Positions 43,237-52,131 of a stretch of DNA of 64,000 nt are shown in pieces. The DNA is taken from positions 1,550,001 to 1,614,000 of the forward strand of contig NZ_AP024202.1 of assembly GCF_021654855.1 (NCBI RefSeq). The letters run 5' to 3'. The notes under the pieces were generated by a model. The model worked only from the letters and a program-made list of their open reading frames with translations. It was not told the DNA's origin and did not search any database. How positions within the stretch are numbered: the first letter of the stretch is position 1; each line of letters begins with the position of its first letter. This stretch comes from Thiomicrorhabdus immobilis (GTDB lineage Bacteria; Pseudomonadota; Gammaproteobacteria; Thiomicrospirales; Thiomicrospiraceae). Position numbers and translations under genes: made by a program.

Positions 43237-43321
43237 TTTCACCAAGCCGGGCAAGCACCACCTTTTATTTGTTAGCTCCCACCTAAAATGGCCAATGATT
43301 AAGAGGGGGCATCCTATACAA

Positions 43322-46300
43322 ATGAAATGGTTAAAACGTTTTGGTCTCACGCTGCTTATAGTATTGATTATGGCAATCAGTTTATTCATGTTTGCACGCC
43401 TATGGATTGATAACAGCCTTAAAGAACAGCATATCACCGATATCAAATGGCAAGTCGGTTCCATAGGGATTAAAAACACCCATATCACCGCCTTGGAGTT
43501 CACCTTACAAGACCGTTTCAAGTTTCAAATCCAAAACCTGGATATTCTATGGTCTTTTAGCCAAACGCCAGCAGATGGCTATCGTCAATTTATTGATGCC
43601 CTTTCAATACAGGCTCTCACAATCAATAACCGTTCCAACGACCAACCCAATCAAGCGATGTTCAGAGATACCGCTAGCAATATCTCAGGCAATACCCCGC
43701 TTGTTGAGCATCTGAATTTAATCATTGCAGTAATCAAACAAAGCTCACAACCGAGTGAACCTCTTGCCCACAACCTCGCAACAAACTTAGCACTTACGGA
43801 CACTGAGTACTTGGCCTATGTTCCCAAAATCGTAAACATTGATAAAATCCAATACTCACAACCATGCATTCCATCCAGTACTGGAACATCGAGTGCACAA
43901 CCTCCCACAACAAAAAGTTGTACGGCAATCGGAAATTTAAAATGGGTTAATCAAATAACAGAGCCGGAAATTTCCAGCAAGCTGACTTTCAAACTACAAG
44001 ATGCCTCCCAGCAAAACTTGCTTATCGATACACAACTGAATTTAACCGCCAAACTTGAAGACCGCAAATTGATGCAAACACGGTTAAATGCTGCGCTCAA
44101 CTTAATCGATAAAAATTTATCCGCTGAACAATCGGTACTTAAACTCCAATGGCACAACCAGACCTCAAACCTTGCAAAAAACCAGTTACACACGAATTTT
44201 CAGATTCAAACCCAACCAGGCCTGGTCACAGAGGATTTTGCGACTCGTTGGCAGGAAGTTAACTCGATTTATCGCAACTGGTCTGGCAAAGATTTAGCTT
44301 TTTCACCCAAGGTCCAACCGCAACTCGATTTGGCGATTGAAGCGCATTTTGATTTAAGCCAGCTGAATGGGCCTGATGAATCGAATCCTCCTCAAGCTTT
44401 GCAAGCTTTATTAAATAACCTAATGAAACACTCCGATTTCAACCTGCACTTTGCTGCGTCCAGCAAACAACCTTTGGAAATCAAAAACCAGGCTGAAATC
44501 AACGGCAATCTACAAGCAGAACTGACGGCCAAACACGGTGAAATAAAACAATATCAACTCCAAGGTAGCGGCAAACTTGCCTTCATTAACGATTCAGCCG
44601 CTGACAACTGGCTCAACAACCATAAAATCAGCCTTCCAGAAATGGCGTTTGAGATTAAAAGCCAAAATCAGCTGGCACTTAAGTTAGACCAGCTGGACAA
44701 TTTAAACGCAACACAAAGCCAATTTCCTTTTAGCGTGTTGCTAAACAGTATCAACAACCAAACCACGCCCTCTCAAAAAGTCAACGGTTTCAAGCTGGAT
44801 TTACAAGGCCGTCTACAGCTAAAACAGCAACCAACCATTGAGATAACCAGCGGAAAACTGCTTGCTGAGTTGCCGTACATACAATTCAACCCATCCAATC
44901 AATCCGAACACAACCGTGCCGAACTGGAATTTACCGCTCAGGCTAATCTGGATTCTTGGAAAATCCTTTCTAAAACAGGTTCTTTAAAAAGCAACTTAAC
45001 AACCCAGTTAACGACCAACTCAACAACCGCTGACAAAAAGCGAGCGGATAAACTAGATATCCGCCAAGCAACCCTGGTTTGGCAAGATCTTGAGCTAACC
45101 GCAAACAAAAAACCAATTAACCCAAAAATCAACCTCACCCAAACCTCAGGGGTTTTCAATAGCACAATTGAATCCATGGCATTGCAAGCCAATATTTCAC
45201 ACCCGCTTGTGCAAGCGGAAAAACTCCAACTCAATATAAAACAATTCGCCTTAACGCCGGTTATTGCCAACCAAAAGACCGCCAATCCGAACCTGGGTGG
45301 CTATCAAATAGACGCTCAATATCAATTAGCCAGCAGTAAGGTTGTTGAACCACATCTGTTAACACAATCATGGAAAGGATTCGGCAAAACGAAGGTGAAC
45401 TACCAATTTGAAGACCGTGAAATAAGCCAAATCCAGTTACAAGGTAGCATTTCAAATAAAGCAGGCCTGGTTGTTTTTCATAATGCCTTTTACACCCCTT
45501 CTCAAATCTACAGTGATTGGTTTATCCCCCCCATCTATTTTTTAGCGGGTAATAGCTTGCAAAAAACCTTTAAAGACTGGCCAAAACTGGTTAACGTCGG
45601 GAGCGGAAAAATCCAGGCCAAAGGTACAACAAAACTCCGTTTTACCGATGCCGATGCGACAAAACCACTGCTTGATAATCTCTATAGCCAAGGTGAGGTT
45701 TCAGCGCAAAGTCTCAGCGGGATACTCTCTGAAACCACCTTTAATCAGATATCGACAGATATGACTTTTGAACTCAATAAGAATGCGCTGTCTTTGAATG
45801 TCAAAAAACTCGAGGCCTTACAGATTAACCATGGTGTCATCCTAGGCCCACTGGAGTTTGCCGCGGATTATCAGGCCAGTCTTCAAGCTTTATCCAAAGG
45901 CAAACTTAAAATCAAACAAGCGACCAGCCAAATCTTCAGTGGACAGGCCTGGTTGGATTCTCAAGACATTAACTTAGCCGAGCCTTTTGCAAGCCAACTG
46001 CACATCAATGCGCTTGATATTACCGCTTTGCTGAAACAATACCCGTCAGCTGAAATCAATGGCACCGGTACGCTTTACGGCGAGCTGCCTTTTAAAGTCA
46101 ACCTGCTTAAAAAACCGTATATCACGATACAAAAAGGGTTTTTGAAAGCCAAATCACCGGGTGGCTTACTCAAATACCAACCTGCTTCAGGCGGATTGAA
46201 ACAAACCCATCAGAGCATGCAACTGGTTATGAGTGTGTTAGAAGATTTTCACTATAATCTTTTGGAAAGCCAGGTCACTTATGAAAACGACAATAAGTTG

Positions 46301-46495
46301 CATTTGAAACTTAAATTACAAGGTAAAAATCCTGCGGTTGAATCGGGTAGGCAAGTTAACTTCAACATCCAACTGGAAGAAGATTTACCCGCTTTGATAA
46401 CCAGCATGCAAATCAGCAACCAAGTGAGTGAGACCATCAAAAAACGGATTCAGAGCAAGTTGGAAAACAGTGAAAACAACGGAGATAGCCGTTGA
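43322..46495 (+). CDS. ydbH: YdbH-like AsmA-superfamily intermembrane lipid transport protein
   Basis: About 1,057 aa. One N-terminal membrane anchor (residues 5-28) is followed by a long periplasmic region of repetitive beta-strand sequence, as in the bridge-like AsmA/YdbH/TamB proteins that move phospholipids to the outer membrane. The C-terminal LDITALLKQYPSAEINGTGTLYGELPFKV and the terminal amphipathic segment are family features. The link to YnbE and YdbL immediately downstream makes the call firm. ATG 43322 chosen for its GAGGGGG. One exact and two near palindrome copies lie inside. Confidence 0.85.
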   Translation: MKWLKRFGLTLLIVLIMAISLFMFARLWIDNSLKEQHITDIKWQVGSIGIKNTHITALEFTLQDRFKFQIQNLDILWSFSQTPADGYRQFIDALSIQALTINNRSNDQPNQAMFRDTASNISGNTPLVEHLNLIIAVIKQSSQPSEPLAHNLATNLALTDTEYLAYVPKIVNIDKIQYSQPCIPSSTGTSSAQPPTTKSCTAIGNLKWVNQITEPEISSKLTFKLQDASQQNLLIDTQLNLTAKLEDRKLMQTRLNAALNLIDKNLSAEQSVLKLQWHNQTSNLAKNQLHTNFQIQTQPGLVTEDFATRWQEVNSIYRNWSGKDLAFSPKVQPQLDLAIEAHFDLSQLNGPDESNPPQALQALLNNLMKHSDFNLHFAASSKQPLEIKNQAEINGNLQAELTAKHGEIKQYQLQGSGKLAFINDSAADNWLNNHKISLPEMAFEIKSQNQLALKLDQLDNLNATQSQFPFSVLLNSINNQTTPSQKVNGFKLDLQGRLQLKQQPTIEITSGKLLAELPYIQFNPSNQSEHNRAELEFTAQANLDSWKILSKTGSLKSNLTTQLTTNSTTADKKRADKLDIRQATLVWQDLELTANKKPINPKINLTQTSGVFNSTIESMALQANISHPLVQAEKLQLNIKQFALTPVIANQKTANPNLGGYQIDAQYQLASSKVVEPHLLTQSWKGFGKTKVNYQFEDREISQIQLQGSISNKAGLVVFHNAFYTPSQIYSDWFIPPIYFLAGNSLQKTFKDWPKLVNVGSGKIQAKGTTKLRFTDADATKPLLDNLYSQGEVSAQSLSGILSETTFNQISTDMTFELNKNALSLNVKKLEALQINHGVILGPLEFAADYQASLQALSKGKLKIKQATSQIFSGQAWLDSQDINLAEPFASQLHINALDITALLKQYPSAEINGTGTLYGELPFKVNLLKKPYITIQKGFLKAKSPGGLLKYQPASGGLKQTHQSMQLVMSVLEDFHYNLLESQVTYENDNKLHLKLKLQGKNPAVESGRQVNFNIQLEEDLPALITSMQISNQVSETIKKRIQSKLENSENNGDSR
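44215..44226. repeat. Iterated palindrome ACCAGGCCTGGT, copy 8 (in ydbH)
   Basis: Exact copy read as Q-P-G-L-V-T. Partial copies in the same gene are at 45462-45471 (CAGGCCTGGT) and 45944-45953 (CAGGCCTGGT). Confidence 0.9.
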
Positions 46496-46660
46496 TATCC
46501 TGCTTCTATCAGTAGTTTTTAAACACAGGAAGCAGAATATTAAAAGACTATGAATTCATTCTTAAGCATCCAAGTTTAGCGATGCTTTCTCATGGACTTC
46601 TGCTAAACTGATTACTCAAAACCGATTACTAAGAACTAAAGTCCCATACTGGAGTTTATT

Positions 46661-46891
46661 ATGCTCTCACAAAATATTTTTCATAATGTCAGGCTACCCC
46701 AAAAATCATTCATCGCCTTTAGCCTGGTGTTTACCATGGCTGGCATATCGGCGTGCACACCATCTGTTCAAGTGGCATTACCCAATGAACCGATCAATAT
46801 CAATTTAAACGTCAAGATTCAGCATGAAATACTGATTAAAATTGATAAACAACTCGATAATATGTTTAGTTCATCCAGCGGATTATTTTAA
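46661..46891 (+). CDS. ynbE: YnbE-like outer-membrane lipoprotein
   Basis: 76 aa. Signal peptide with lipobox (GISACTP), then the short mature segment INLNVKIQHEILIKIDKQL typical of YnbE. In E. coli, YnbE multimers in the outer membrane stack onto the C-terminal end of YdbH to complete the lipid-transport bridge, and YdbL modulates that interaction. Gene order ydbH-ynbE-ydbL is conserved here, with 165 nt after ydbH and 11 nt before ydbL. Confidence 0.85.
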   Translation: MLSQNIFHNVRLPQKSFIAFSLVFTMAGISACTPSVQVALPNEPININLNVKIQHEILIKIDKQLDNMFSSSSGLF

Positions 46892-46902
46892 GGAGAGTCA
46901 TT

Positions 46903-47256
46903 ATGAGAATTTTAAAACCCATCAACATATTGATTATCAGTTTATTACTCACCCTCTCGTCTTATGCTTGGTCAATGGATTTGTCTGCAGCTATGGCTCA
47001 GCTCAGCACGGTAAAAAGCCAAGGTCTGGTAGGAGAACAGCAAAATGGCTATTTGGGAGTGGTCAAGAATCAAAACAATGCACAAAGCGTAGTGCAGTTA
47101 ATTAACCAGGCTCGTAACGAACAGTATCAAAAAATGGCGCAAACCCACAATGTGAACTTGTCTGAGATTGAAGCTTTAGCCGGGAAAAAAGCCATCGAAA
47201 AAACCCCTTCAGGGCAATACATCAATATTGATGGAAAATGGATGAAAAAACCTTAA
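46903..47256 (+). CDS. ydbL: YdbL-like periplasmic protein (DUF1318)
   Basis: 117 aa with a Sec signal peptide (cleavage near AWS-MD). Contains LSTVKSQGLVGEQQNGYLGVV and INQARNEQYQKMAQ, the DUF1318 pattern. The family partner acts as a chaperone-like regulator of YdbH-YnbE assembly in E. coli. AAGGAGAG precedes its ATG. Last gene of the operon, followed by a long hairpin. Confidence 0.87.
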   Translation: MRILKPINILIISLLLTLSSYAWSMDLSAAMAQLSTVKSQGLVGEQQNGYLGVVKNQNNAQSVVQLINQARNEQYQKMAQTHNVNLSEIEALAGKKAIEKTPSGQYINIDGKWMKKP

Positions 47257-47273
47257 ATCATTCACTCTGATTA

Positions 47274-47308
47274 AAACATGCAACTGCTTGACACAGCTTT
47301 GCATGTTT
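47274..47308. terminator. Hairpin after ydbL
   Basis: AAACATGCAA / TTGCATGTTT, a ten-base perfect stem with a 15-nt loop. No T-run, so it may be an RNA-end or mRNA-stability element instead of an intrinsic terminator. Confidence 0.4.
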
Positions 47309-47443
47309 ACCTAAACACCAGCTCCTGTCGCTAATCAAGTTTTCTGCTTTTTTACTTAAAATCCCCAAACTAAATATTGATTCACCCCATCCATCTGTTA
47401 ACATTAATTCTGTGTGTTCGCATAATTACGGTGGAGTCTAACA

Positions 47444-49786
47444 ATGAAAGCTTTTGGTCTTATTCTAAAAATATTATTGGGTTTAATTACGATCGTCGTG
47501 ATTGCGATAGGTGTGGTGATTGCAACCGTTGATCCGAATGATTATCGTGATGAGATTACCGGCCTGGTCAAAAAAGAAACCGGGCGAGACTTAACCGTCG
47601 AAACCATGAGTTTGTCATTTTTTCCGCATCTATCTATCGATTTAGAATCCGCCTCATTAAGTAATGCACCAGGTTTCAGCGACTCCCCATTTGTTAGCAT
47701 CGATAAAGTTCAAGTGGGTGCAGCGATATTACCGCTACTTAGTCAAAAACTGGAAGTAGACACTCTTACCCTGCATGGTTTGTCCTTGAATTTAGAACGC
47801 AATAAAGATGGCCAAAGCAACTGGGATGATTTAGTCAAAGCCAAAGACGAAAACGATCACCACGAAGATAAAAAAGATGATGAAGAGCACAGCAATCCAA
47901 TGGATAAGCTTGCGGCTTTGAACTTTGGCGGGATTGACATTCAAAACGGTAAAGTCGTTTGGGATGACCAGCAAAGCCAACAAAAAGTGACACTTGAAAA
48001 TCTAGACTTCACCAGTGGTGCGATTACCTTTGGCGAGTTCTTCTCTATCGCGTTATCTGCCGATAGTAGTGTTAGCCAGCCTCAAATCAACAGTAATTTT
48101 GCCATCAACTTAGAAGCCAAACTTGAAAAAGATGGCCAGTATGCCATTCGTAATTTACATGTTAGCAATACGACGTCAGGCCAAGGCATTCCGGTCAAGC
48201 AAGCCACCACTAAAATAGACTTGCCGAGTTTCGCCTTGGAAAACAACACCCTATCCCTTCCGAGCCTCGCTGTCGATTACGACATTATTGGTGGAAAAGA
48301 TTTCCCTTTGGATACCATTAAAGGCCAGTTAACCTTAAGTGAATTTACCGGTAATCTCGACACCCAAGCATTCAAAGCGAATCAAATTGTATTAAATTCC
48401 GACGTAACCGGTGAAACCATTCCAAATGGTAAAGCCACCATTGGTTTGAATACTTCAGCCGATATTGATTTAAAAGCACAAACGGCTAAACTGCCAAAAC
48501 TGACTGTTAAGGTATTAGACTTAACCGCTAACGGTGATGTGCACGCAAGTCAAATCACTGGCGACGCACTGGTCAATGCCAATATCAATATCGCACAAAC
48601 CAACCTAAGAGCCCTGTTAAATCAATTGAAAATCACCCTGCCTGAAATGGCTGATAAATCAAGTTTAACCAAGTTTGCCGCTTCATTTGGTGTTGTCTTT
48701 GCCAGCAAAAACCAAGCGCTTAAAGTCAATGACCTCAAGTTGGCTTTGGACGACAGTTCATTAACCGGTAATGCCGCGGTAAGCCAGTTCAGCACCCCAA
48801 ATATTCGCTATGATTTAACACTAAACCAAATTGATGTGAACCGTTATCTTCCTCCTAAAAAAGAGCAGCCTGCCAACACCCCAGAACCACAAGCCGATGC
48901 CGACGCTAAAATTGAATTGCCGGTTGAATTACTACGTAAGCTGACTATCGACGGCACAATCAAGGTAGGCAAAGCTTCTTTTGACAAGCTAAAACCACAA
49001 AATATTGTGATGACCACCAAAGGCTCTAAAGGCAAGTTACAAGTTAATCCATTAAAAGCCGACATTTTCAAAACACAAGTATTAGTTAATGCTGGTCTAG
49101 ATGTCACAGGCAAAATGCCAAAATACAGCGTTAAAACCAATACCAATAACCTACCAATAGGTGAAGTCTTGCTCGCCTTTGCCGATAGCGACAAACTCTC
49201 TGGTACCGGAACAATGAAGGCTGATATCACCACGGCTGGCGAACGTGTTTCCGAGTTCAAGAAAAACCTGAATGGTACAGCCTACGTTGACTTGAAAGAT
49301 GGCGCCATCAAAGGCTTTAACCTAGCACAATCCATTCGTGAAGCCAAAGCCAAACTCAGCGGAAAAACCCTGCCTAAAACCGATGAAATCCCACAAACCG
49401 ATTTCAGTTCTTTAGTTGCCGATGTCACGATCAAAAACGGTGTGGTAAACACCAATAGGCTGTCAGCTCAAGCTCCTTTCATGCGTGTCAATGGAAGTGG
49501 TACGGTTGACTTACCTAAAGAGACTTTAGACTATTTAGTTAAAACTAAAATCGTTGCCAGCGATAAAGGTCAAGGCAGCGAAGACTTCAAAGACTTGGAT
49601 GGACTGACCATTCCGGTAAAACTAAAAGGTGCTTTAACCAGCCCTGGTATTTCTTTAGATTTAGAGTCATTAATGTCACAAAAGGCTCAAGCGGAAATAG
49701 AGAAGAAAAAAGACGAAGTGGTCAAAGACGTTCAAAAGAATGTCGAAGACAAGTTGAAAGATGTATTTAAAGGCTTCAAGTTCTAA
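47444..49786 (+). CDS. AsmA family protein
   Basis: 780 aa. N-terminal membrane anchor (LGLITIVVIAIGVVIATV), immediately followed by the AsmA signature DPNDYRDEITGLVKKETGRDLTVE, then long beta-strand-rich periplasmic sequence and a C-terminal DUF-type segment NGTAYVDLKDGAIKGFNLAQSIREA. AsmA proteins carry lipids or tune outer-membrane assembly. A charged His/Asp/Lys insertion (DENDHHEDKKDDEEH, about residues 135-149) is unusual and may bind metal. ATG with GGTGGAG upstream. Possibly cooperates with YdbH upstream, with overlapping transport role. Confidence 0.88.
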   Translation: MKAFGLILKILLGLITIVVIAIGVVIATVDPNDYRDEITGLVKKETGRDLTVETMSLSFFPHLSIDLESASLSNAPGFSDSPFVSIDKVQVGAAILPLLSQKLEVDTLTLHGLSLNLERNKDGQSNWDDLVKAKDENDHHEDKKDDEEHSNPMDKLAALNFGGIDIQNGKVVWDDQQSQQKVTLENLDFTSGAITFGEFFSIALSADSSVSQPQINSNFAINLEAKLEKDGQYAIRNLHVSNTTSGQGIPVKQATTKIDLPSFALENNTLSLPSLAVDYDIIGGKDFPLDTIKGQLTLSEFTGNLDTQAFKANQIVLNSDVTGETIPNGKATIGLNTSADIDLKAQTAKLPKLTVKVLDLTANGDVHASQITGDALVNANINIAQTNLRALLNQLKITLPEMADKSSLTKFAASFGVVFASKNQALKVNDLKLALDDSSLTGNAAVSQFSTPNIRYDLTLNQIDVNRYLPPKKEQPANTPEPQADADAKIELPVELLRKLTIDGTIKVGKASFDKLKPQNIVMTTKGSKGKLQVNPLKADIFKTQVLVNAGLDVTGKMPKYSVKTNTNNLPIGEVLLAFADSDKLSGTGTMKADITTAGERVSEFKKNLNGTAYVDLKDGAIKGFNLAQSIREAKAKLSGKTLPKTDEIPQTDFSSLVADVTIKNGVVNTNRLSAQAPFMRVNGSGTVDLPKETLDYLVKTKIVASDKGQGSEDFKDLDGLTIPVKLKGALTSPGISLDLESLMSQKAQAEIEKKKDEVVKDVQKNVEDKLKDVFKGFKF

Positions 49787-49809: not shown

Positions 49810-52131
49810 ATGGGATTAGTAAAGACACTTGTCAGTAAAAGTTTCGCTCGCCCTTTTATCTATAGCATCATCATAACGAGCCTAACCGCTTGTGGTGGTG
49901 GCGGTGGGAGTACAACACCTGTTATCCCGGAAGATGATGGACCTGTTGTCATTTATGTTGACGATAATCCATTAGTTCCGGTTCAATATGCTCCTTTTGG
50001 AACCTCTACGATAGCGGGAACCTTAGAACAGCAATCGGTTACCAATGCCACTGTGGCTTGGGATGCCGGTTTTAAAGGCCAAGGAATAACAATTGGCGTA
50101 GTTGACTCTGGAGTCAATCCAAACCATATTGAATTTTATGATGATAATGGTATTTCCAGAATCAACTGGACTGATGCCAGAAGCATTGAATACAATCTTG
50201 CTTCAGATACCCTTATCTACACTAACGATTATAGAGATATCGATAATCCAGACTATCATGGAACTCATGTTTCATCTATTGCCTTAGGGCGTGAATATGG
50301 CGTAGCACCCGAAGCAACACTTTTGCCCGTAAATGTGTTTCTAGATAATTCAACGGCCTACAATATCGCTATTTACGAGGCTGTCGACTACATCGCCTCA
50401 AAAGCTCCCATTGTAAATTCCTCTATTAGTGGAATGGTTAACCTATCTACATTAGGTGGAGCCAATAGTGAACTTAACGATTACTTAACCACTTTAACAA
50501 ACAACACTACAGCCCTTGTTGTAGCTGCTGGAAATGAAGGCAATGCTGTTGGTGCTGAACATTTCATTCACTACAATTCAGCGCAAAACCTGGCAATTCA
50601 ACCCGGCATTGAAAACCAAGTTTTATCTGTAATCGCTTTAGACGATAGCGGTAGCCTTGCCAGCTTCTCTAACTATCCTGGTAGCTGTAGTGATGTAACA
50701 GGAACTCCTGACATCGCTTGCGATGGAACTGTGATGTCAGCTATACAAAACAGCTTTATATCGGTTCCAGGCGTGACGATTGAAGCGGCTTATGGTGGCG
50801 ATACGACAAGCACCATTGAGTACAGCGGAACTTCTATGGCCACCCCGATTGTCAGCGGTGGTTTAGCGCTACTGCTTTCTTCTTGGGACCAATTAACCAT
50901 TCAGCAAGCCGTGCAGATTTTAAAAGATACCGCCAATGATACTGGAGCCTATGCCGATGCCTCTTTGTATGGTGTTGGACTTATGGATATCGCAGCGGCT
51001 TTAACCCCAGTTGGCGACCTAAAATCAAGCGCACTAAGCTCAACCACCACTTCTTACACCCTTGGAGAATCTTCTGTCTCAATCCCCGCTTCCCTGAGTG
51101 GTTTAGCCAGTTTAGCAGGACTTAAGAATGTAGCTTTTTTTGATGACTATAGCCGAGAATTTTTAGTCGATATCACTCCCGCGATTCAAATTGAACAAAC
51201 ACCGCTTGACTGGAATGCATTCTGGTCTAACTCTCAACCTTACCAAATAAACCAAATTGAGCTGGGCGACTATCGACTATCAATGAGTTTTGATAACCTT
51301 AAATCGTCTTCCCCTTTGAAAAATTTCAGCTTGCAGAATGACCGATCTCGTTTTGACTATATGCAAAACAGCTCTGATGATTTAATGCAAAGCCAGCTCA
51401 ATCCGTTGATGAACCTTTTCTACTCCAGCAACCAAAAGGAGTTTGGTAATACCTTAGCCATGCAACAAGCTTTGGGTGCAAATTTATCGCTTTTTAGCTC
51501 AATGCAAGAGCAAGATAAAAACTTTGCCAAAGTGGTCAATAATCAAAATGATATTCTGGCGCAAGTACAGACCATCGGTTTAAGTTATCAACCTTCAAAA
51601 AACTGGTCAGTGGCGCTTTCCACACAACTTCGCAAAGAACAAGATGGTTTAATGGGGCTACAAGGTAGCGGAACCTTTTCTTTTGGTGAAAGCAATCTCT
51701 CGCAAATTAATAGTTTAGCGGTTCAATATTCACAAAATGGCACCCGGATATACAGTCAGCTTCAACAAGGTGAACTGCTGAACTCGCAACATGCCGCAGG
51801 CAGTTATATTCAGGTAGATAAGGCACAAATCGGTCAATTCAAAGTCGGAATCATGCATAAAACCTCAGCACAATCAGCTTGGGGTTTGCAAGCCTATAAC
51901 TACAACCCATTGATTGATTCAGAACTGCGTCTTACCGTTCCAACAGGCATGAGTGCTAATGGAGAGATTGAGAGCCAAACATTTAGCTATCAACAAAAAG
52001 GCAGTTTACAACCTGACACAATTGAACTGTTTTATAAAAAAGGCTTGAACAACACGCTTCAGTATCAGTTCAATGCAATCAAATCACCGGAAGATTCCGG
52101 CTTTGGTTTAAGACTCAGCCGAATCTTTTAA
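49810..52131 (+). CDS. Lipoprotein subtilisin-like protease with barrel-like C-terminus (NalP-type autotransporter?)
   Basis: 773 aa. Signal peptide with lipobox TACGGGGGS, the poly-Gly tether common in surface lipoproteins. The S8 domain spans about residues 75-400, with Asp99 (VVDSG), His150 (YHGTHVSS), Asn in VVAAGNEGN and Ser342 (GTSMATP). The remaining 370 residues hold alternating amphipathic strands and end in Phe (GLRLSRIF), as outer-membrane barrels do. This layout resembles NalP/AspA-type autotransporters, which release themselves or other surface proteins. A full barrel has not been verified. Starts 24 bp after the AsmA gene. Confidence 0.83.
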   Translation: MGLVKTLVSKSFARPFIYSIIITSLTACGGGGGSTTPVIPEDDGPVVIYVDDNPLVPVQYAPFGTSTIAGTLEQQSVTNATVAWDAGFKGQGITIGVVDSGVNPNHIEFYDDNGISRINWTDARSIEYNLASDTLIYTNDYRDIDNPDYHGTHVSSIALGREYGVAPEATLLPVNVFLDNSTAYNIAIYEAVDYIASKAPIVNSSISGMVNLSTLGGANSELNDYLTTLTNNTTALVVAAGNEGNAVGAEHFIHYNSAQNLAIQPGIENQVLSVIALDDSGSLASFSNYPGSCSDVTGTPDIACDGTVMSAIQNSFISVPGVTIEAAYGGDTTSTIEYSGTSMATPIVSGGLALLLSSWDQLTIQQAVQILKDTANDTGAYADASLYGVGLMDIAAALTPVGDLKSSALSSTTTSYTLGESSVSIPASLSGLASLAGLKNVAFFDDYSREFLVDITPAIQIEQTPLDWNAFWSNSQPYQINQIELGDYRLSMSFDNLKSSSPLKNFSLQNDRSRFDYMQNSSDDLMQSQLNPLMNLFYSSNQKEFGNTLAMQQALGANLSLFSSMQEQDKNFAKVVNNQNDILAQVQTIGLSYQPSKNWSVALSTQLRKEQDGLMGLQGSGTFSFGESNLSQINSLAVQYSQNGTRIYSQLQQGELLNSQHAAGSYIQVDKAQIGQFKVGIMHKTSAQSAWGLQAYNYNPLIDSELRLTVPTGMSANGEIESQTFSYQQKGSLQPDTIELFYKKGLNNTLQYQFNAIKSPEDSGFGLRLSRIF

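Follow-up and report, generated by a model that had tools for sequence, protein, structure and literature searches.

Subtilase autotransporters of the NalP type have mostly been studied as virulence factors. In the parts of the literature available to us, NalP and SphB1 are described as lipidated proteins that act at the cell surface (PMC9977779, PMC9289746), and RcsF as a lipoprotein able to get to the cell surface by passing through the inside of an outer-membrane barrel (PMC11784454). The patatin domain of PlpD, once called a passenger, is exclusively periplasmic (PMC11116518). An open reading frame in the window, by which we mean the whole 64,000-nucleotide stretch of the Thiomicrorhabdus immobilis genome that was analysed, had been likened to NalP and AspA in a reading made from the letters alone, hereafter the sequence-only reading. 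We conclude that its 773-aa product is a lipoprotein subtilase on a predicted porin-type barrel, a relative of the NalP group and not a member of it. We found no description of a subtilase-porin fusion, or of a class of subtilase-porin-barrel outer-membrane proteins, in the literature searched.

Lipoprotein leader and tether

The ORF occupies 49810-52131 on the forward strand and comprises 773 codons from an ATG start, with GGGAGAG 7 nt ahead of the ATG. Its signal peptide (49810..49893, forward strand) carries the lipobox SLTAC, in which residue 28 (49891-49893) would be the lipidated Cys, and Gly29-33 follow directly, as the sequence-only reading had it when it called the product a lipoprotein with a poly-Gly stretch. 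C28 is invariant across the nine proteins of the genus. Of 30 aligned relatives, 20 have a lipobox, and none of these has Asp at +2; the pattern flagged 21, including L084, which is N-terminally incomplete and was discarded as spurious, and L006, which was flagged at the wrong Cys yet has a real lipobox and is counted among the 20. By the +2 rule for lipoprotein sorting, proteins without Asp at this position go to the outer membrane. The 773-aa protein has Gly there (SLTA-C28-G29), and a lipobox Cys with no Asp at +2 makes it a predicted outer-membrane lipoprotein.

Residues 29-72 (49894..50025, forward strand) form a tether that opens with the Gly5 stretch and is predicted to be disordered, with pLDDT <50 for residues 23-71. 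Tethers are long in relatives of the protein. The Cys-Gly4 pattern has six DNA matches in its own genome, three of which are lipoprotein starts by eye, that of the 773-aa protease included, and the poly-Gly tether appears to be a style common to other lipoproteins of this genome and no special feature. Apart from the protease's own, two lipoprotein starts, at about 2.12 and 2.22 Mb (L165 and L166), have four to five Gly after the Cys; L165 looks Calx-beta-like by eye. Relatives L071, L072 and L073 have no lipobox and show a hydrophobic small-residue stretch ahead of the tether, followed in L071 and L073 by Gly-rich sequence.

Subtilisin-fold catalytic domain

Residues 73-400 (50026..51009, forward strand) make up the catalytic domain, with D99, H150 and S342 as the triad and N242 at the oxyanion position, as judged by Pfam, the structure model and the alignment. 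Peptidase_S8 (PF00082) covers residues 90-390 with an E-value of 2.6e-35, no Pfam propeptide match was present, and a Pfam scan of the whole protein up to E 10 returned nothing besides Peptidase_S8. NCBIfam gave only sub-cut-off matches, to various S8 subfamilies that include the autotransporter peptidase EprS. The modelled domain superimposes on Bacillus lentus subtilisin 1c9m with a VIA Z of 34.1 and an rmsd of 2.1 A over 258 residues, and Foldseek matched it to subtilisins at E 1.8e-16. The catalytic domain belongs to Peptidase S8, with the subtilisin fold and the complete Asp-His-Ser triad that had been read from the sequence. PF00082 was matched by 30/30 aligned members, and D99, H150, N242 and S342 are invariant in all 30 full-length proteins, the window's own included, which argues for selected proteolysis. 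The protein is the sole PF00082 match in its single-contig 2.54-Mb genome. In family members L192 and L193, GAS replaces GTS around the catalytic Ser, with the Asp and His motifs kept by eye.

Distribution of the protease-barrel combination

Of 32 genomes of the genus that were searched, nine, its own included, hold an orthologue of near full length, and the other eight orthologues are 36-69% identical. Five of the loci carry names, four of them Thiomicrorhabdus and one labelled Hydrogenovibrio sp. Thiomicrorhabdus is a chemolithotrophic genus, and the guess that the organism is a free-living lithotroph agrees with these named relatives.

A C-terminal profile built from nine sequences matched 3 of 369 genomes of the class (E 0.01); one built from 11 sequences matched 18 of 398 genomes of the phylum (E 0.01); and one built from 30 sequences matched 37 of 398 Pseudomonadota genomes (E 0.001), the own genome being counted each time. 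A protease domain lay in the same frame as the barrel at E 1e-3 or better in 29 of the 30 genomes checked out of these 37, the weakest being that of L196 (E 1.2e-6); the seven genomes outside this check include several with only short, weak matches. In the thirtieth (G699), L195 is a stand-alone barrel relative, a 394-aa frame with a signal peptide, no protease and a weak OprB match (E 0.0031). Two matches of the 11-sequence profile were left unaligned, one in G656 (L086, no complete frame) and one in G507 (L058, E 0.0055), and neither gave a barrel match at E 1e-3 when rescanned. An annotated relative, the 'S8 family peptidase' of Sphingomonas parapaucimobilis, is 46% identical over 92% of the query L079. 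The same protease-barrel combination is, as far as sequence profiles tell, widespread in other bacteria.

Kinship of the protease domains

For comparison, seven subtilases were collected that carry the autotransporter barrel PF03797 (7/7) and PATR (6/7). In a tree of 50 catalytic domains these seven formed one clade (100/98), nested in a group with four members of the subtilase-porin-barrel family (100/98), while the 30 family members did not form one clade and well-supported branches forced at least three changes. The sister of the genus clade that includes the 773-aa protein consisted of five barrel-less lipoprotein subtilases from the same genus (95/92). The tree is midpoint-rooted, has several long branches (L071 the longest) and three rows of unusual composition, and does not give the direction of change. 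These placements indicate that the protease module has been combined with two kinds of barrel and also occurs without any. The PF03797 subtilases and the subtilase-porin-barrel family are thus, to judge by their catalytic domains, relatives with different barrels. NalP-type autotransporters may have arisen by a barrel swap to PF03797, or the change may have gone the other way. The parallel with NalP and AspA drawn in the sequence-only reading holds for the catalytic domain and is not supported for the barrel, which looks porin-like, with neither PF03797 nor PATR matched in the protein.

Seven genomes of the genus hold lipoprotein subtilases of about 480 aa without a barrel (L233-L239; e.g. L233:3406-4857, forward strand), and five of these are the ones that the tree places next to the genus clade. 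The genes ahead of them in six of the seven regions are presumably, from inspection by eye, some or all of tolB, pal, cpoB and queC. We considered a two-gene version, with a separate barrel gene beside the barrel-less subtilase, and found none in the seven regions; profile matches there reached only E 0.069 and 0.76, in unlikely frames, and some of the stretches end about 1 kb 3′ of the gene.

Genomic neighbourhood

An AsmA-family gene (47444..49786, forward strand; PF05170, E 6.8e-66) lies directly upstream of the protease gene, with a gap of 23 bp. A row of YdbH-like, DUF1318 and AsmA-family genes occupies 43295-49786, just 5′ of the protease gene, and the DUF1318 gene is one that we take to be YdbL-like. 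Of the nine genus genomes with the protease gene, six carry it directly 3′ of asmA; in the remaining three it lies elsewhere and asmA runs straight into DUF2062. Among the 23 genomes without the protease gene, the asmA loci of 21 were viewed, and 18 have an amino-acid permease, SDR, DUF2062 or ProRS gene within about 1.5 kb 3′ of asmA; in the other three, none of this set occurs in the stretch viewed. As asmA was matched in 32/32 genomes of the genus and the protease gene is sited patchily, we regard the latter as an accessory gene with a favoured place beside asmA.

Neither a promoter-like nor a terminator-like site was seen in the 23 bp gap, although promoter-like matches around it occur only as often as chance would give; asmA and the protease gene are possibly co-transcribed. 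Seven neighbour proteins, scanned around two genus orthologues sited elsewhere and two distant relatives, were of unrelated kinds and included no shared partner. Guilt by association was accordingly set aside, the asmA link being confined to six genomes of the genus.

Linker and predicted C-terminal barrel

The 30-sequence alignment gave an AlphaFold model of the whole protein with a mean pLDDT of 83.9 and a pTM of 0.76; by 10-residue block, pLDDT was mostly 86-97 in the subtilase, 71-93 in the linker and 48-93 in the barrel, the second half of which was mostly near 90. An earlier model, made with a nine-sequence alignment, had only the C-terminal part well built, and the structure search with the barrel used this first model.

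A barrel had been expected somewhere in residues 400-773, and one is indeed predicted, with a span of about 481-773 (51250..52128, forward strand). Residues 403-480 (51016..51249, forward strand) form in the model a separate folded linker of short helices and a hairpin. The linker carries the motif D445-x-Y447-x-R449, with D445 conserved in 100%, R449 in 90% and Y447 in 80% of the 30 members. Against the size of a POTRA domain, our standard for this comparison, the strand-helix-helix-strand-strand stretch at 422-453 is about half as large, and it has no Pfam POTRA match at E 1; we rejected a POTRA-like linker. A KP-43-like C-terminal domain was likewise rejected, being a different beta domain (PMC3765597).

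The best structural match of the barrel was Vibrio cholerae OmpT (6ehe; VIA Z 16.8, rmsd 4.4 A, 255 residues aligned), followed by OmpC-type porins (Z about 15) and CymA (Z 15.1), and Foldseek matched it to Omp36 (5o9c) at E 2.3e-6 with a TMt of 0.46. OmpT, OmpC-type porins and OprB have 16 strands and CymA has 14. The rmsd is large and the TM-scores are modest (about 0.4-0.5), so that the match denotes likeness, not identity. The best 50 structural matches listed comprised porins and CymA and no 12-strand autotransporter barrel, an absence from a list that excludes nothing.

Along the barrel, tight turns alternate with variable loops in the 30-member alignment, and a helix-bearing loop (522-544) would lie at the site of porin loop L3 if the barrel is oriented as we infer from the model. 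The model has 15 hairpin-linked strands over 293 residues when the kinked strands 689-714 and 720-745 are merged, and 16, with a then periplasmic C-terminus, when the short strand 459-462 is counted too. The lipid-facing alternation is weak in strands 481-485, 559-569, 645-660 and 720-730, and 14 strands are thus as possible as 16. The sequence-only reading proposed to look for a barrel of 12 strands whose pore is crossed by a helix, and the model does not point to one: its strand count suggests 14-16, and the linker helices are of 8, 4 and 8 residues. The protein does end in Phe as had been noted (Phe773), and among the 30 members the terminal residue is Phe in 25, Trp in three, Tyr in one and Leu in one.

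Sequence comparisons were weak throughout. PF03797 was not found in the 773-aa protein even at E 10 nor in any of the 30 members at 1e-3, and when C-terminal regions were scanned singly at E 1 it was touched by one of 30, at E 0.021. None of the 30 members had a PATR segment at E 1e-3, and POTRA and Omp85 families were found neither in the 30 members at E 1e-3 nor in their 30 C-terminal regions at E 1. Besides Peptidase_S8, the porin family OprB was the only family matched by any member at E 1e-3 or better; it was found in two of the 30 scanned singly at E 1 (best E 1e-4), along with other single weak matches. The window's own C-terminal region matched no Pfam family at E 1, porin families included. 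Compared by hhalign, the 30-member C-terminal profile had a probability of 4.5 against 14 PF03797 barrels and 45 against 11 Porin_4 sequences, with a control of 2.5 for the PF03797 autotransporter set against the Porin_4 set; the reference sets are the loci that could be aligned (14/20 and 11/16), the remainder being cut, out of frame or left out. Among PDB sequences the profile's sole matches were to a DcaP-like protein (E 0.061) and to porin B (E 0.69). The barrel is apparently covered by no Pfam family. With neither PF03797 nor PATR matched and no long pore helix seen in the model, the 773-aa protein is better kept apart from the type Va autotransporters of the NalP/AspA kind.

Membrane side and proposed function

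We favour, with a probability of about 0.42, a reading in which the protease works on the periplasmic face of the outer membrane. The leader would direct export by Sec, lipidation and delivery to the outer membrane. The subtilase would be held there by both ends: at the N-terminus by a lipid, from which the flexible Gly tether leads off, and at the C-terminus by the porin-type barrel, which the BAM machinery would insert via the C-terminal Phe signal. The protease would remain in the periplasm, docked through the conserved 80-residue linker beneath the barrel mouth, with proteins or peptides at the outer membrane as its substrates. This side is suggested by the default topology of lipoproteins and porins, by the lack of PATR and of a long pore helix, by the barrel-less cousins and by the PlpD precedent (PMC11116518). 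The 14-16-strand porin matches, the porin-like pattern of turns and loops and the stand-alone barrel relative without a protease also favour it.

The periplasmic face is slightly favoured and the surface is close behind. A surface protease like NalP and SphB1 with a different barrel is quite possible; it would cross during barrel assembly, stay lipid-tethered outside, and trim or shed surface proteins or digest external protein. Its catalytic domain is akin to those of the PF03797 subtilases, a type known for activity at the cell surface; two of the seven (L010 and L232) share its leader of lipobox, poly-Gly and Pro-rich sequence, and long tethers recur in relatives. NalP and SphB1 are themselves lipidated and surface-acting, and RcsF is threaded outward through a barrel lumen (PMC9977779, PMC9289746, PMC11784454). 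Four stretches predicted to lie outside (611-616, 697-700, 715-719 and 731-736) are unusually conserved and fixed or nearly so in length, as expected if they hold an external domain; a fifth, 621-627, is conserved but varies in length from 3 to 9. By eye, some of the 611-616 motif is retained in the stand-alone barrel L195, and the conserved outer stretches may therefore serve the barrel itself. Against a surface protease stand the wider porin-like barrel, the absence of PF03797 and PATR matches and of a long pore helix in the model, and in the parts of the literature searched we found no enzyme exported by its own fused porin-type barrel. PF03797 also had no match in the protease's own genome at E 0.001, so that no autotransporter of that kind was found there for it to process.

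We think it unlikely that the protein is a genuine type Va autotransporter with a 12-strand barrel that has diverged past sequence recognition and whose strands the model over-counts. The NalP domain order, the kin catalytic domains, the single marginal PF03797 match and the weak alternation in several strands, the first (481-485) included, speak for such divergence, but about 15 hairpin-linked strands over 293 residues, the hhalign preference for Porin_4 and the OprB matches speak against it. Least probable of all is a solute channel in which the protease domain merely gates or protects and has no substrate of its own, an idea that suits the porin-like fold and the stand-alone barrel relative but sits badly with four active-site residues kept in every member.

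Proteins of this kind are easily mistaken for NalP-type autotransporters, as happened in the sequence-only reading. We tentatively suggest a widespread class that couples a subtilase to a porin-type 16-strand barrel in a single machine, which might be a protease facing the periplasm beneath a pore or else a new type-V-like route by which a porin-type barrel takes a protease to the surface. With a related family of different barrel type at hand in a free-living genus, one can ask whether a wide barrel of the porin type is able to export an enzyme passenger; by analogy with PlpD, the outcome might instead be that the supposed passenger never leaves the periplasm. Beside its AsmA-family gene, the 773-aa protein is a candidate outer-membrane quality-control or processing protease.

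Comparison with known systems

With the subtilisins the protein has in common the fold and the catalytic triad, but it has no Pfam propeptide match and is predicted to be anchored by lipid and barrel. With OmpT of V. cholerae, OmpC, OprB and CymA it probably shares the barrel fold, as judged by structure search, and a helix-bearing L3-like loop, and it has the terminal Phe; porins, however, carry no protease, and the sequence likeness is marginal (OprB in 2/30, best E 1e-4). PlpD, a type Vd fusion of patatin and Omp85, is likewise a single chain in which a globular enzyme precedes a wide outer-membrane barrel. Its barrel is of the Omp85 kind with POTRA, whereas here the enzyme is a subtilase, no POTRA was found in 30 members and a lipobox is present in 20/30. 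Compared with the type Va proteins NalP/AspA, SphB1 and EprS, the 773-aa protein lacks a PF03797 barrel and PATR, shows no long pore helix in its model and has 14-16 strands by count, yet it shares with them a signal peptide, often with a lipobox, a subtilase and a C-terminal barrel with a terminal aromatic residue, and their catalytic domains are related.
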